Origin: Streptomyces sp. Go-475
GTDB lineage: Bacteria > Actinomycetota > Actinomycetes > Streptomycetales > Streptomycetaceae
Length of the DNA stretch: 64,000 nt
Assembly: GCF_003330845.1 (NCBI RefSeq)
Contig: NZ_CP026121.1
Location: 248,001-312,000 of the forward strand
Direction: 5' to 3'
The first letter of the stretch is position 1, and each line of letters begins with the position of its first letter. Both the position numbers and the translations under genes were made by a program. Below are positions 37,947 to 44,618 of the stretch, piece after piece. Below the pieces are notes generated by a model. It did not search any database. It was given only the letters and a program-made list of their open reading frames with translations, and had not been told where the DNA came from.

Positions 37947-38432
37947 ATGGTCGTGAAGGACACGGAACTGCCGCACCTGCGCCGCTGCGTGGAGCTCGCC
38001 GCCGAGGCGCTGCGGGCCGGGGACGAGCCGTTCGGATCGGTCCTGGTCGGCGGGGACGGCACGGTCCTCGCCGAGGACCACAACCGGGTGGCCTCCGGCG
38101 ACCGCACCCGGCACCCCGAGTTCGAACTGGCGCGCTGGTCGGCGGCCCGCCTCTCCCCCGAGGAGCGGGCGGCCGCCACGGTCTACACCTCCGGCGAACA
38201 CTGCCCGATGTGCGCGGCCGCGCACGCCTGGGTCGGCCTGGGACGCATCGTCTACGCCGCCTCCTCCGAGCAACTCTCGTCCTGGCTCAGCGAGTTGCTG
38301 GTCCCCGCGCCACCGGTCCGGACACTCCCCGTCCACGAGGTCGCACCCGGTGTAGTCGTGGACGGGCCCGTACCCGAACTCACCGAGAGTGTCCGGGAGT
38401 TGCACGTCCGGTTCCACCGCGGACGCGGCTGA
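37947..38432 (+). CDS. Nucleoside/nucleobase deaminase (CDA fold)
   Basis: A 161-residue zinc deaminase. The zinc site is HPEFEL (His and catalytic Glu) and SGEHCPMCAAAH (PCxxC-like, with one change: CPMC). The length and GDEPFGSVLV opening fit the guanine deaminase/tRNA adenosine deaminase superfamily. The substrate is undetermined. ATG 37947. It is divergent from the GNAT gene. Confidence 0.85.
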   Translation: MVVKDTELPHLRRCVELAAEALRAGDEPFGSVLVGGDGTVLAEDHNRVASGDRTRHPEFELARWSAARLSPEERAAATVYTSGEHCPMCAAAHAWVGLGRIVYAASSEQLSSWLSELLVPAPPVRTLPVHEVAPGVVVDGPVPELTESVRELHVRFHRGRG

Positions 38433-38572: not shown

Positions 38573-41500
38573 ATGTCCTTGCTGCCGGCGCGGCGGCTGA
38601 TGGCCGCCTATATCGCCCTGGTCACGGCCGTCACGATCGTCTACCTGACCGTGCCGGTGCTGGCTCCCGCGCTGTGGGCCGTCATCGGGCTGGCCGGCGT
38701 CACCGCCGTCCTGGCCGGCGTGCGCCTGCACCGGCCCGCCCACCAGTGGCCCTGGTGGTTCCTGGCCGGCGGGCTGCTCACCTTCATCACGGGTGACACC
38801 TACTACAACGTGATGGAGGAGTACTTCGACGCCTCCAACCCGTTCCCGTCCCCCGCCGACGCCTGCTACCTCGCCACCTACCCGCTCTTCGCGATCGGCC
38901 TGTCCGGACTGGTGCGCCACCGCTGGGCCGACCGCGACCTGCCGAGCCTGCTCGACGCGCTGATCGTCACGGCGGGCCTCGCGCTGCCCGTGTGGGTGTA
39001 CCTGGTGCAGCCGCTGACGGTGGTGGAGGGGCTGACCTGGGAGCAGCGCGCGATCAGCATCGCCTACCCCCTGGGCGACGTCCTCGTACTGGCCCTGCTG
39101 GCCCGGCTGCTGACGCCGAGCCCGGTCACCGGCCACAACCGTGCCGTGGGCCTGCTGGTCGTCGGCACCGTGACGCTGCTCGGCTTCGACATCGCGTACG
39201 GGATCCTGCAACTGAACGGCCTGTGGCAGACGGGCACCCTGCTCGACACCGGATGGATCGCCTTCTACACCGCCTGGGGCCTGGCCGCCCTGCACCCCTC
39301 GATGGTCGAACTGACCGCCTCCGTGCCGCAGCGCGAGTCCCTGCTGCCGCCGCCGCGCCGGCTGGTCATGCTGGCCGTGGCCACGCTCATCGCGCCGGGG
39401 ATCCTGCTGTACGAGGGCTTGAGCGAGCAGACACGGGACGCCGCCGTGATCGCGGCCTTCTCCGGGGTGCTCTTCCTGCTGGTGATCCTCCGGCTGGCCG
39501 GGATGGTGGTGGCCCATCGGCACGCGGTGACCCGGGAGCTGGCCCTGCGCGGGGCCGCCGCCTCGCTGGTCTCGGCCTTCCGGCAGGAGGAGGTCGACGA
39601 GTCCTGCCGTACGGCGGTCGACCGGCTGCTCGGGCCGGACGTGCCGCACCGGACGGTGCTGCTGCCGTCGGAGCGGGTCGCGGACCTCGGCGCGCACGGC
39701 ACCCGGCTGGTCAGTCCGGCCGCCCTCGACGACAGCGTCGGCGCCGAGCTGGACGCCCTGCCGTCCGTCCTGGTGTGCCCGATGACCCAGCCGGACCGCC
39801 CGGCCGGAGCGATCCCGGGCGTCCTGCTGGTCGCCGGCCCGGAGCGACAGCTCACCGAGACCTGGGGCTCCCTGGAGATCCTGGCGTCGCACGCGGGCCT
39901 GGCCATGGAGCGGGTCAAGCTGCGCCAGGAAGTGGTCCGGCGGGAGAACGAGGCGTACTTCCGCACCCTCGTCCGCAACGCCTCCGACGTCATCCTGATC
40001 CTCGAGGACGACGACACCATCCGGTACGCCAGCCCGTCCGCGCGGTCCGTGTTCGGCACCGACGACCTCGTCGGCGTGTCCCTGCCGGAGCTGGTGGACC
40101 CCGGGGACCGGGAGCGAGCCACCCGGGAGCTGACCGCCGTACGGGAGCGGGGGTCGCCGGCGGGGCACGACCACTGGTGGGTGCGGCGCGGCGACGGGCG
40201 CGTCGAGGTGGAGGTGCGGTTCAGCGACTTCCGGGACGAGCGGACCGTATCGGGGCTGGTGGTGACGCTGCGGGACGTGACCGAGCAGCGGCGGCTGGAG
40301 CAGGAGCTGACCCAGCGGGCCTTCCACGACTCGCTGACCGGTCTGCCCAACCGGACGCTGCTGCTGGAGCGGATCGAACGCGCCCTGCTGCGCGGTCGCC
40401 GCGAGTCCTCCCTGACCTGTCTGCTCTTCATCGACCTCGACGACTTCAAGCTGGTCAACGACACGATGGGGCACCGGGCGGGCGACCATCTGCTGATCGC
40501 CGTCGGCAACCGGCTGTCGCGGACCCTGCGGCGCACCGACACGGCGGCCCGGCTCGGCGGTGACGAGTTCGCGGTGCTGATGGAGGACGCCAAGCAGCCC
40601 CTCGACGCCGAGCTGCTGGCGGCCCAGGTGATCCAGACGCTGGGTCGGCCGTTCGACCTGGACGACGAGTCGGTGACGGTGTCCGCCAGCGTGGGCGTGG
40701 CCACCGCGCGCGACAGCACGGACGCGGAGGAGCTGCTGGGCCACGCCGACCTCGCGCTCTACGCGGCGAAGGCGGCGGGCAAGCGGCAGTGGCGCCGTTT
40801 CCGGCCGCTGCTGCGCAGCCGCATGGTCGAGCGGCACGATCTGCAGTCGCAGCTGGCCCAGGCGGTCGCCGACAAGGCGTTCGCGCTGCGTTACCAGCCC
40901 GTCGTGGACATCGCGGCGGGGGAGGTCGTGGGGTTCGAGGCACTGGTCCGCTGGCCGGCCGAGGAGCGGCCGCCCGTCACGCCGGACCAGTTCATCGGCC
41001 TGGCCGAGGAGACCGGGCACATCGGCCCGCTGGGGTCGTGGGTGCTCGAGAACGCGGTCAGCGACATCGCGGGCCTGCAACGGCTGCCGGGGCCTTCCCG
41101 TGCCCCGTACGTGAGTGTGAACGTCTCCGCCCGCCAGTTCCGCGACGCCGGCTTCGTCGAGCAGGTCGGCCAGGCGCTCAGCACGCCGGGGCTGGAGCCC
41201 GGGTCGCTGCAGCTGGAGCTGACGGAGACGGTGCTGCTGCACCGCGACGACCGGCTCCAGACGGTGCTGCACACGCTCAAGGAACTCGGGGTGCACATCG
41301 CGGTCGACGACTTCGGCACCGGCTTCTCCTCGCTGCGCTATCTGCGGGACTTCCCCATCGACGTGCTGAAGATCGACAAGTCGTTCATCGACGACATCGC
41401 GCGCGACGCCCAGCAGGTCGCCCTGGTCGAGGGCATCGTGCGCATCGCCGACACCCTGGGCCTGCAGGTCATCGCGGAGGGCATCGAGGACGCGGCCCAG

Positions 41501-42877
41501 CGGGATCTGCTGGCGAGCATGGGGTGCCGGTTCGGGCAGGGGTTCCTGTTCGCCCGGCCCCTGACCGTCGAGCAGAGCGCCCACGTGCTGCGGGAGCCGA
41601 GCACCCGCCCCTTCGCGCCGCCCCGGACGCCTCGCCCGCGGGTGGACGCCGCCCGGGGACGCCGGGAGGCGCGCTGGGCGGACCTGGAGCACCTGCGGCG
41701 CACCAGTCCCATGAGCGACGCGGTCCTCGACGAGGTGCGCGGCCGGCACATCCGCAGCGGCGACCACTGGCTGATCGACTTCGCGTCGTGCAACTACCTC
41801 GGACTCGACTGGGACCCGGAGGTCATGGACGCGGTCGATCCCGCGGTGCGCGAGTGGGGCACGCACCCCAGCTGGTCGCGCCTGCTGGGCAGTCCGCGGC
41901 TGTACCCGGACATCGAGGAGCGGCTCGCCGCGCTGCTGGGCGCGCCGGACACGCTGCTGCTGCCCACGCTGACGCTGGTGCACGCCTCGGTGATCCCGGC
42001 GCTCGCGGAGGACGGTCACGTGTTCGTCGAGGCGACCGCCCACCGGACCGTCTACGACGGCTGTGTGGTGGCCCGTGGGCGGGGTGCCACCCTGCACCGC
42101 TTCCACGGCGAGCGGCTCGACGAGCTGCGCGCCCTGCTGTCCGGGGTGCCGCCGGGCACGCCCCGGCTGGTGTGTCTGGACGGCGTCAACAGCATGAGCG
42201 GCAACATCCCCGACCTGCCCGCGCTGGCGGCGGTGTGCCGCGCCGAGGGCGCGACGCTGTACGTCGACGACGCACACGGCTTCGGCGTGATCGGGGAACG
42301 CGGGCCGCGCGAGCCGTGCCCGTACGGCATGCGCGGCAACTGCGTGGTGCGGCACACCGGGGAGTCGTACGACGGGATCGTGCTGGTCGGCGGTTTCTCC
42401 AAGGCGTACTCGTCGCTGCTGGCGTTCCTGGCGCTGCCGTCGGAGCTGAAGAACCGGCTGAAGACCGCGGCGGCTCCCTATCTGTACTCGGGGCCGTCCC
42501 CGACGGCGTCCCTGGCCACCGCGCTGGCCGGGCTGGACGTCAACGAACGCCGGGGCGACGCGATCCGGGCCGACCTGTACCGCAAGACGGTGCGGGTGCT
42601 CGACCACCTGGACGACCTGGGGGTGAGCACCCTCAACACGGACCGGCTGCCCATCGTCGAGGTGCCGCTGGCGAACCCCGCGGACCTGGACGCGGTCGCC
42701 GCGTTCCTGTGGGAGGAGGGCATCTACGTGACGCTGGCCGCCTACCCCCTCGTCCCCCGCGACCGGGTGGGCTTCCGCATCCAGCTCACCGCCCTCAACT
42801 CGGACGACGACATCGACCGCCTGAACGGCACCCTGACCCGGCTGTCCGAACGATTCCCGCTGCGGCTGAAGGGCTAG
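38573..42877 (+). CDS. Membrane GAF-PAS-GGDEF-EAL protein fused to an alpha-oxoamine synthase
   Basis: A 1434-residue fusion. About ten transmembrane helices (~7-320) are followed by a GAF-like region (~330-455) and a PAS domain (~458-575). The diguanylate cyclase has GGDEF at 662-666 and an I-site RRTD ending five residues before it. The EAL domain has EAL at 789-791, with DDFGTG, KIDKSF, EGIED and GQGF all present. After a Pro/Arg linker (~1010-1035) comes a full PLP-dependent alpha-oxoamine synthase (~1037-1434) with FASCNYLGLD, VDDAHGFG (1231-1238) and the Schiff-base Lys 1277 in GGFSKAYSS. All catalytic motifs look intact. It is predicted to make and/or degrade c-di-GMP and to condense an acyl-CoA with an amino acid. 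GGAGG lies 3 nt before ATG. Confidence 0.88.
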   Translation: MSLLPARRLMAAYIALVTAVTIVYLTVPVLAPALWAVIGLAGVTAVLAGVRLHRPAHQWPWWFLAGGLLTFITGDTYYNVMEEYFDASNPFPSPADACYLATYPLFAIGLSGLVRHRWADRDLPSLLDALIVTAGLALPVWVYLVQPLTVVEGLTWEQRAISIAYPLGDVLVLALLARLLTPSPVTGHNRAVGLLVVGTVTLLGFDIAYGILQLNGLWQTGTLLDTGWIAFYTAWGLAALHPSMVELTASVPQRESLLPPPRRLVMLAVATLIAPGILLYEGLSEQTRDAAVIAAFSGVLFLLVILRLAGMVVAHRHAVTRELALRGAAASLVSAFRQEEVDESCRTAVDRLLGPDVPHRTVLLPSERVADLGAHGTRLVSPAALDDSVGAELDALPSVLVCPMTQPDRPAGAIPGVLLVAGPERQLTETWGSLEILASHAGLAMERVKLRQEVVRRENEAYFRTLVRNASDVILILEDDDTIRYASPSARSVFGTDDLVGVSLPELVDPGDRERATRELTAVRERGSPAGHDHWWVRRGDGRVEVEVRFSDFRDERTVSGLVVTLRDVTEQRRLEQELTQRAFHDSLTGLPNRTLLLERIERALLRGRRESSLTCLLFIDLDDFKLVNDTMGHRAGDHLLIAVGNRLSRTLRRTDTAARLGGDEFAVLMEDAKQPLDAELLAAQVIQTLGRPFDLDDESVTVSASVGVATARDSTDAEELLGHADLALYAAKAAGKRQWRRFRPLLRSRMVERHDLQSQLAQAVADKAFALRYQPVVDIAAGEVVGFEALVRWPAEERPPVTPDQFIGLAEETGHIGPLGSWVLENAVSDIAGLQRLPGPSRAPYVSVNVSARQFRDAGFVEQVGQALSTPGLEPGSLQLELTETVLLHRDDRLQTVLHTLKELGVHIAVDDFGTGFSSLRYLRDFPIDVLKIDKSFIDDIARDAQQVALVEGIVRIADTLGLQVIAEGIEDAAQRDLLASMGCRFGQGFLFARPLTVEQSAHVLREPSTRPFAPPRTPRPRVDAARGRREARWADLEHLRRTSPMSDAVLDEVRGRHIRSGDHWLIDFASCNYLGLDWDPEVMDAVDPAVREWGTHPSWSRLLGSPRLYPDIEERLAALLGAPDTLLLPTLTLVHASVIPALAEDGHVFVEATAHRTVYDGCVVARGRGATLHRFHGERLDELRALLSGVPPGTPRLVCLDGVNSMSGNIPDLPALAAVCRAEGATLYVDDAHGFGVIGERGPREPCPYGMRGNCVVRHTGESYDGIVLVGGFSKAYSSLLAFLALPSELKNRLKTAAAPYLYSGPSPTASLATALAGLDVNERRGDAIRADLYRKTVRVLDHLDDLGVSTLNTDRLPIVEVPLANPADLDAVAAFLWEEGIYVTLAAYPLVPRDRVGFRIQLTALNSDDDIDRLNGTLTRLSERFPLRLKG

Positions 42878-42883
42878 ACGGCC

Positions 42884-43618
42884 ATGACGACGCACAACGA
42901 CGACGTGGACTGGGACCGCTGGCCGGTCGCCGACTACCTCGCGGAGAACTACCGCGAGGTGCATCCCTCGGACGCGGCGGTCATCGCGCACCACTCCGCC
43001 TACTACCGGCGCCTGCCGCCCGGGAGCGTCGCCCGCTCGGTGGAGTTCGGCGCGGGCCCCAACCTCTACCCGCTCATCCTCGCGTCCGCCGTGAGCCGGA
43101 GGATCGACGCCGTGGAGGCGGGGTCGAGCAACGTCGCCTACCTCCAGGAGCAGATCTGCCACCGGCCCGACGCGAGCTGGCTGCCCTTCCACGCGCTGTG
43201 CCGGCGGCTCAACCCGGCCGTGCCGGCGACCCTGGCCGGGGCGCTGGCCCCGGTGAACGTCGTCCACGCCGATGTGCGAACCCTGCGGCCGGGCACGTAC
43301 GGACTCGCCTCCATGCACTTCGTCGCCGAGGGCGCCACGGAGGACTTCGCCGAGTTCGCCGACTTCTGCCGCACCTTCGTCCGCGTGGTCGCGCCGGGCG
43401 GCCACCTGGTCGCCGCGTTCATGGAGAACATGCCGACCTACCGCATCGGCCCCGCCTCCCGCTGGCCGGGCTGCCCGGTGAGCCCGACGACGGTCACCGA
43501 GGTCTTCACCCCGCTGACCCGCGACCTGGACGTCACCCACATCGACACCGACCCGACCCTGCCGGACTACGGCGACTCGGGGATGGTGCTGCTCACAGGG
43601 GTGGCGGAGGCGGTCTGA
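42884..43618 (+). CDS. SAM-dependent methyltransferase (NNMT/PNMT/TEMT-like)
   Basis: A 244-residue methyltransferase. SAM motif I is SVEFGAGPNLYPLI and the acidic ribose-binding residue is in DAVEAGSSN. VVHADVRTL follows, then SMHFVAEGATEDFAEF, as in the NNMT/PNMT/TEMT family that methylates small amines and other small molecules. It starts 6 bp after the fusion gene and must be cotranscribed with it. It could methylate the amino-ketone expected from the alpha-oxoamine synthase; this is inference. Confidence 0.85.
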   Translation: MTTHNDDVDWDRWPVADYLAENYREVHPSDAAVIAHHSAYYRRLPPGSVARSVEFGAGPNLYPLILASAVSRRIDAVEAGSSNVAYLQEQICHRPDASWLPFHALCRRLNPAVPATLAGALAPVNVVHADVRTLRPGTYGLASMHFVAEGATEDFAEFADFCRTFVRVVAPGGHLVAAFMENMPTYRIGPASRWPGCPVSPTTVTEVFTPLTRDLDVTHIDTDPTLPDYGDSGMVLLTGVAEAV

Positions 43619-43681: not shown

Positions 43682-44359
43682 TCAGCCGTCCGCTCCCGGG
43701 CGGAACCGTCGGCGCAGGACCACTCCCCCGGCCACGAGGGCCGCGCTCACCGCGACGGCCGGGAGGGTGTGGTCGGTGCCCGTGCGGGCGAGGGCGCCCC
43801 GGGTCTGCTGCGGGGTGTGCGGGGCCGGTTCCGGGGCCGGGGCCGGGTGCGCGCGCGGTGGGGTGGAGGGCTTCGGGGCCGGCTCCGGTGGGTGGTGGGG
43901 GCGGACCGGGCGTTCGCCGGGTGTGTTCGAGGACTCGTTGCCGGTCGAGGCGTTGCCGATGCCGACCACGTTCACCGAGTTGCCGGTGACGTTGACCGGC
44001 AGGTCGACCGGCAGCTGGATCCCGTTGCCGGAGACCACGCCCGGGGAATCCTTTCCGCTGCCCTGGGCGACCGCGCCGCCGGGCTTGCCGGGCCGGTCGC
44101 CGGGGCGATGCGCGGGCCTGCTCTTGTTCGCGCAGCTGTTGCCCGCGGCGGGGTTCAGGAGCCCCACCACGTTCACCGTGTTCCCGCACACGTTCACCGG
44201 GACGTGCACCGGCAGCTGGATGGTGTTGCCGGAGACCACCCCGGGCGAACCGGCCGCCGAGCCGTCCGCCCCGGAACCGGCGTGGGCGGGGACGGTCAGG
44301 GCCATCGCGCCCGAGGCGGCGGCGACGGCGATCACACCGTTTCGGGTAACCCGTCTCAT
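43682..44359 (-). CDS. Long chaplin with LAxTG sorting signal
   Basis: A 225-residue ChpA/B/C-type chaplin that forms the hydrophobic coat of aerial hyphae. The signal peptide ends about residue 27 (TVPAHA). Chaplin domain 1 (~38-78) has both Cys (NVCGNTVN, GNSCANK). Domain 2 (~103-145) reads NVTGNSVNVVGIGNASTGNE and lacks both. A Pro-rich spanner leads to LARTG (sortase site), a helix, and RRRFRPG. Sortase would anchor it to peptidoglycan. Start ATG 44359. Confidence 0.92.
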   Translation of the reverse strand: MRRVTRNGVIAVAAASGAMALTVPAHAGSGADGSAAGSPGVVSGNTIQLPVHVPVNVCGNTVNVVGLLNPAAGNSCANKSRPAHRPGDRPGKPGGAVAQGSGKDSPGVVSGNGIQLPVDLPVNVTGNSVNVVGIGNASTGNESSNTPGERPVRPHHPPEPAPKPSTPPRAHPAPAPEPAPHTPQQTRGALARTGTDHTLPAVAVSAALVAGGVVLRRRFRPGADG

Positions 44360-44618
44360 AGGTTCCCTGCCTTCCAGACATCGTCGCGGGCACTCACCCG
44401 CATGAGACAAAACGCGACGCCCCCGATCCGAGTTATGGCTTATCGGCCTTTCACTCCATCGAGCGGCCCGGTTGTCGAACTAGCGGTAAAACCCTTCGTA
44501 TGCGGGGTGCGGCGGCGCAGGATAAGGCACTTCGCCCGGCCCCGCCCGTGCGGAGGCGCGGCCCCGGGGGCCCGCTTATCGTGGGCGAGGGCGCCGTGGG
44601 GCGCCCTGGGAGGCATCG

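Follow-up and report, generated by a model that had tools for sequence, protein, structure and literature searches.

Domain organisation of the locus

The window analysed here, a stretch of 64,000 nucleotides from the chromosome of Streptomyces sp. Go-475, carries at positions 38573-42877 a single open frame (ATG start at 38573, 1434 codons, stop ending at 42877) that joins a ten-helix membrane domain, which we call SENS, and PAS, GGDEF and EAL domains to an alpha-oxoamine synthase (AOS) dependent on pyridoxal 5'-phosphate (PLP). The earliest in-frame start for this frame is a GTG at 38210, and a gene for an S-adenosylmethionine (SAM) methyltransferase begins 6 bp after its stop. The features are as follows.

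38573..39562, + strand: SENS, ten-helix membrane domain and presumed receptor, residues 1-330
39545..39937, + strand: alpha/beta domain between SENS and PAS, from an AlphaFold2 model
39974..40294, + strand: PAS domain, residues 468-574 (Pfam)
40319..40786, + strand: GGDEF domain with intact GGDEF motif and RRTD I-site, residues 583-738 (PF00990, 5.1e-46)
40850..41560, + strand: EAL domain with intact motifs, residues 760-996 (PF00563, 1.1e-70)
41573..41662, + strand: linker between EAL and AOS, residues 1001-1030
41663..42874, + strand: AOS, PLP-dependent alpha-oxoamine synthase with Lys1277, residues 1031-1434 (PF00155; TIGR00858, 174 bits)
42884..43618, + strand: SAM methyltransferase of the NNMT/PNMT type, 244 aa (PF01234, 27.3 bits)

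The first-pass annotation of this DNA had reported an uninterrupted sensor-PAS-GGDEF-EAL-synthase frame of 1434 residues with a methyltransferase 6 bp downstream, and the frame, the Pfam matches and the methyltransferase coordinates confirm both statements. The motifs that it had called intact were likewise located in the protein: GGDEF at residue 662, RRTD at 653, EAL at 789, DDFG at 912, EGIE at 969, the DxAH motif as DDAH at 1232, and Lys1277, with the Aminotran_1_2 match spanning residues 1068-1417. The motifs for cyclic di-GMP (c-di-GMP) turnover are kept in relatives as well; GGDEF, I-site and EAL motifs occur in 102/102 distinct Streptomycetaceae loci, the DDFG and the EG[IV]E motif in 101/102, and LKxD in 98/102. 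The domain before PAS had been described as GAF-like, a label that we could not confirm: it has no Pfam match up to E 10, and although the AlphaFold2 model of residues 320-580 gives a confident alpha/beta fold followed by PAS, its structural matches depend on the PAS half and not on the alpha/beta part.

Conservation of the fusion

We searched 150 Streptomyces genomes and found a close synthase homologue in 26, the next matches being ordinary synthases of about 30-35% identity. The 25 AOS genomes other than the host have the parts in the same order, fused in 15 and split by a stop or a frame change in eight. Wider synthase searches returned 47/394 genomes in the family (E <= 1e-50), 52/245 in the order (E <= 1e-60), 36/394 in the class (E <= 1e-40) and 26/296 in the phylum (E <= 1e-60, with the synthase of a stand-alone family, f18, as query), and a scan of named genomes, in which the top 80 out of 563 or more relatives were kept, gave Streptomyces throughout save one Actinacidiphila. 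Pooled and with duplicates removed, these amount to 122 synthases, of which 90 are fused to EAL, 13 are split and 19 stand alone (f18). Both parts are thus adjacent at 103 distinct loci, 102 of them in Streptomycetaceae, with a single frame at 90 and a stop or frame change at 13. The methyltransferase follows AOS in 99/102 Streptomycetaceae loci, five of these having a gap of 1.3 kb. Copies of the fusion in the other two of the 25 AOS genomes are damaged, one by several frameshifts (L054, 4852-9889) and one by a large internal deletion (L055, 6407-7830), and the methyltransferase gene is intact in both.

The host chromosome was assembled as one 8.57 Mb contig, and in the window's clade AOS and EAL share one frame in each of the 13 rows, which makes the sequencing error at the junction once considered as a refutation very unlikely. 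With only 35 stops expected in 4107 linker codons, this DNA seldom closes a frame by chance, so an open frame by itself is weak evidence; the claim of fusion is carried by the conservation of the frame. The fusion is neither an error nor unique to the window.

The synthase extends to other orders and classes of Actinomycetota. In f50, a sister family in the same order, the gene immediately before the synthase encodes SENS-GGDEF-EAL, in a different frame, in 10/10 fetched stretches, and the methyltransferase is absent from these ten. Among 20 stretches from other classes, SENS is near the synthase in all 20, usually just downstream of it, and EAL was seen in 15, with two more cut by a contig end. 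For f18 (28 genomes found, 19 stretches fetched), a GGDEF-EAL gene lies within 5 kb in 17/19, mostly convergent. An EAL gene occurs within 3.4 kb of AOS in 11/14 sampled genomes, against an expectation of 0.5 within 6 kb from gene density, so gene density does not account for the adjacency. Separate genes in homologues had been named as evidence that would undo the fusion proposal; they do exist (13/103 split loci, and all ten f50 stretches), yet the gene pair and its coupling persist.

Origin of the single frame

At all 13 split loci, the synthase has its start some 36-60 bases upstream of the conserved part, preceded by a ribosome site that is at least weak, and this start often overlaps the EAL stop. 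A start behind six or more Shine-Dalgarno matching bases is also present at the junction in 11/90 fused loci, compared with 0/450 control windows from the same genes; under a looser rule, 16/90 fused loci have an internal start and 74/90 lack one. The window's linker has no start with a Shine-Dalgarno match of four or more bases where split relatives begin the synthase, and no strong ribosome site with a start was found at the junction in any of the 13 rows of its clade, so the fusion looks obligate there. On the synthase tree rooted on f18, the split loci L092 and L129 are basal, the fused versus not-fused state requires at least seven changes, and one sister pair (L161 split, L164 fused) has one start site in common and differs in frame. 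Judged from these sequences, the loci appear to represent successive stages: two coupled genes, then a single frame that retains an internal start and finally, as in the window's clade, a single frame that lacks it.

It could be argued that two translationally coupled genes merely drifted into one frame in GC-rich DNA, with no functional gain. The rarity of stops would allow this (only 17/90 fused linkers have a stop in frame +1 and 13/90 in frame +2), and the strong internal start kept in 11 fused genes and the mixing of fused and split forms in some clades agree with it. The linkers, however, are variable, rich in Pro, Ala, Arg and Gly and 24-138 codons long, and they stay in frame even though 74 fused loci without an internal start would lose the synthase on a frame break; in two large clades, where 23/23 and 45/47 rows are without an internal start, all 70 are in frame. 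We consider an incidental fusion very improbable. Two linkers (L169, L209) contain tandemly repeated peptides between EAL and synthase, with the frame kept.

The membrane domain as constant partner of the synthase

The AlphaFold2 model of the first 330 residues has ten long helices (pLDDT 89.7, pTM 0.86). The window copy of SENS matched no Pfam family, and MASE5 was matched weakly by 4/31 homologues. A profile built for this domain (A2) finds SENS beside AOS across the phylum. In the Streptomyces set of 150, SENS was scored as strongly matched at E <= 1e-100, with the frameshifted copy in G009 also counted; by this rule 25/26 AOS genomes have it versus 3/124 others. The remaining genomes gave no more than a weak hit (about 80-110 bits), and this hit was the CdgC-like protein where checked. 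In the draw of 296 genomes from the phylum, SENS at E <= 1.3e-77 occurs in 26/26 AOS genomes versus 11/270 others, and it lies within 5 kb of AOS in 25/26, the exception having the two on two contigs.

Near AOS, SENS is attached to a histidine kinase at seven loci, two of which also have receiver or Hpt domains. Four (L272, L273, L289, L309) have no EAL near the synthase and carry SENS on the kinase instead, and at the other three (L275, L284, L287) a kinase version and a GGDEF-EAL version of SENS stand side by side. When 51 SENS domains are placed on a tree, the kinase label has to change six times, and well-supported branches force five of these changes. The constant neighbour of the synthase across the phylum is the ten-helix domain rather than the c-di-GMP enzyme.

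This result bears on the direction of signal flow. The first-pass annotation had proposed a signal device in which c-di-GMP state controls synthesis of the product; a signal device remains likely, and its direction is probably the reverse, on the evidence of these sequences. Since the ten-helix domain stays beside the synthase even when it is attached to a histidine kinase, the synthase product would be sensed by the N-terminal domain and c-di-GMP would be the output.

In the opposite arrangement, the sensor and the c-di-GMP state would act allosterically on the attached synthase, and the protein would make a diffusible metabolite under control without also being the receptor for it. Covalent fusion, and catalytic GGDEF and EAL motifs retained at every one of the 102 Streptomycetaceae loci, would be in keeping with this. 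The replacement of GGDEF-EAL by a kinase beside AOS at some loci speaks against it, as do the split relatives, in which the synthase has a start of its own and forms a distinct chain (in f18 the gene is often on the opposite strand), and the long, variable linkers, which are unlike a tight allosteric joint. We regard allosteric control of the synthase as unlikely.

Synthase, methyltransferase and neighbouring genes

The AOS domain belongs to the alpha-oxoamine synthases, PLP enzymes of fold type I, with 174 bits against the BioF model and matches of its profile (A1) to structures of serine palmitoyltransferase (SPT), BioF and KBL down to 4e-53. Columns K247, D202-D203, H205, H127 and R372 of AOS, to which we ascribe catalytic roles, are invariant in 24 homologues, and by sequence AOS carries the residues of an active alpha-oxoamine synthase. 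An assignment as a CqsA/LqsA equivalog was rejected: PRK07179 scored 88.6 bits with homologue L093 against a cut-off of 428, and this family was not among the best 25 of the 42 families listed for the window protein. CqsA structures were matched by profile A1 at 1e-17, ranking far below SPT and BioF.

The methyltransferase narrowly exceeds the PF01234 (NNMT/PNMT/TEMT) cut-off (27.3 versus 25 bits), with no single stretch passing alone, and its profile (A3) matches structures of nicotinamide N-methyltransferase at 2.5e-6 and also those of indolethylamine N-methyltransferases. Membership of the SCO2525 family (NF040568) was rejected at 125.1 bits over the whole length against a cut-off of 240. 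The window enzyme thus resembles SCO2525-type and NNMT/PNMT/TEMT methyltransferases in matching both models over its whole length, and differs from the SCO2525 type as a sister group below the NF040568 cut-off.

An MFS_3 exporter gene stands beside the synthase in seven Pfam-tested loci (L046, L129, L192, L271, L276, L280, L308). At L129 (3794-5854, - strand), exporter and methyltransferase form one 687-aa frame, a second fusion within the unit. In f18 (L093-L111), clustering of open reading frames (ORFs) places an LFTR aminoacyltransferase gene with the synthase in 13/19 loci, two of them Pfam-tested, and a Methyltransf_11 gene beside it in 12/19; at L094 the LFTR gene starts 2-5 bases after the synthase. 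Members of the LFTR family, which are aminoacyl-tRNA transferases, also take part in making livipeptin (PMC10548850). Such amine-modifying enzymes, next to a putative aminoketone synthase, are consistent with a small molecule that undergoes tailoring.

Genes for SENS-PAS-GGDEF-EAL proteins without AOS were also found near an LFTR gene (L291, L293, L296, L297, L299, L300). At L291 (5304-12739), an MbtH-A-T-reductase nonribosomal peptide synthetase (NRPS) lies between the two, an arrangement like a livipeptin operon that carries a c-di-GMP sensor of its own. In this order of genes, such homologues resemble the livipeptin-type clusters of LFTR and C-minus NRPS, whose amino aldehyde is chemically akin to an amino ketone; unlike the fusion loci, livipeptin-type loci have no AOS. 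GGDEF and c-di-GMP are unmentioned in the portion of the livipeptin paper available to us (PMC10548850).

These loci bear on a further explanation, namely that the product of AOS and the methyltransferase is a lipid or a specialised metabolite of the ordinary kind, and that the c-di-GMP protein senses the environment, lies next to the pathway and is joined to it by chance. Genes of the same sensor type directly preceding a reductase-type NRPS and LFTR, as in livipeptin protease-inhibitor clusters, agree with such a role, as does the closeness of AOS to SPT, KBL and BioF structures. Against it, the unit has only three genes, its wider neighbours vary between clades, and no recurrent carrier protein, ketosynthase or resistance gene was found. 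We think an ordinary biosynthetic pathway improbable here.

In the window, a long chaplin gene (43682-44410, - strand; two stretches with ChpA-C matches, PF03777) is convergent with the methyltransferase gene. An ORF of its cluster lies downstream of the unit in ten loci including the window, whose copy alone was Pfam-tested. Chaplins coat aerial hyphae, and a developmental link of the unit through this neighbour is possible.

Comparison with known systems

The genes cqsA, lqsA and jqsA each adjoin the gene of their cognate sensor kinase (in the sections consulted of PMC3566124), and the six-helix part of CqsS confers the response to CAI-1 on another enzyme (in the excerpt consulted of PMC4821796). 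Like CqsA/CqsS, LqsA/LqsS and JqsA/JqsS, the actinobacterial loci pair a PLP-dependent alpha-oxoamine synthase with a neighbouring gene for a multi-helix membrane protein (SENS within 5 kb in 25/26 genomes, a putative receptor), an exported small ketone would be expected, and some SENS partners are histidine kinases. Unlike those systems, the synthase belongs to another subfamily, nearer BioF, KBL and SPT; SENS has ten helices instead of six; the usual output is GGDEF-EAL, with a histidine kinase in seven relatives; and Streptomyces has synthase and sensor in one chain, plus a methyltransferase. A six-helix receptor with histidine-kinase output is not what the window encodes, with its ten helices and GGDEF-EAL.

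The first half of the protein has a probable counterpart in Streptomyces venezuelae. CdgF (vnz02140/sven0451) is described in the portion of PMC6205966 consulted as 10TM-PAS-PAC-GGDEF-EAL with both active sites; Table 1 there gives an architecture without a synthase domain, and CdgF-FLAG, tagged at the C-terminus, was found in membranes only. Its role was called undefined in 2026 (part of PMC13232838). The window protein likewise has the 10TM-PAS-GGDEF-EAL organisation with both active sites kept, and unlike CdgF as published it carries a synthase domain. Three relatives, S. zaomyceticus, S. narbonensis and S. gardneri (G867-G869), have five EAL proteins each, two of which lie about 20 kb from one another and agree with RmdB and CdgC; only the fused protein matches SENS, and the PAS query is matched by the fused and the CdgC-like proteins. 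Among the other three, the fused protein alone has SENS and PAS, so CdgF is probably the orthologue of the window protein, as judged by elimination in these three relatives. The earlier statement that no protein of this architecture is described holds for the fusion, of which our literature search found no published description, and should probably be amended for the first half, known as CdgF.

Proposed mechanism and significance

We propose that AOS would take an amino acid and an acyl thioester as its two substrates and form from them an alpha-aminoketone by condensation, and that the methyltransferase may methylate this product, probably on the amine. The product would leave by diffusion or through an exporter, and its binding to the ten-helix domain would, via PAS, shift the balance of cyclase and phosphodiesterase, c-di-GMP thereby reporting the signal. 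The ancestor may have encoded synthase and receptor side by side in two genes, an arrangement like that of CqsA/CqsS; in Streptomyces these would have been joined, holding the synthase at the membrane beside the receptor.

That SENS is the receptor, and the product its ligand, is suggested by a genomic association that is strong and repeated. Several observations weigh against this interpretation. The SENS fold has no significant match in the PDB, so the receptor role is assigned by position only, and AOS is nearer in sequence to BioF, KBL and SPT than to CqsA. SENS occurs without AOS in 3/124 AOS-less Streptomyces genomes (G030, G103, G110), there are extra SENS copies in four AOS genomes (G099, G114, G139, G009), and four AOS-less copies (L292, L294, L295, L298) count among the closest relatives of the sensor in the window. 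In f18, SENS is matched only weakly (36-71 bits, 16/19 loci), and the Fisher values for co-occurrence ignore relatedness. S. venezuelae with cdgF deleted showed no phenotype in development (in the portion consulted of PMC6205966).

Taking these points into account, we give even odds to a self-contained signal synthase and receptor in one protein. The fuller proposal is that one polypeptide both produces an alpha-aminoketone signal and responds to it, methylated or unmethylated, through its ten-helix domain, turning cell density or a self-made signal into c-di-GMP, as the fused end point of a phylum-wide family of AOS and ten-helix receptors with interchangeable outputs (c-di-GMP enzymes or histidine kinases); we tentatively assign it a probability of about 0.4.

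These findings suggest that a bacterium may sense its own signal with a single protein. The locus would combine in one gene a candidate signal, its maker and its receptor, and would provide a likely role for CdgF; SENS, which has no Pfam family, would stand as a candidate module for ligand binding, present in several actinomycetotal classes.

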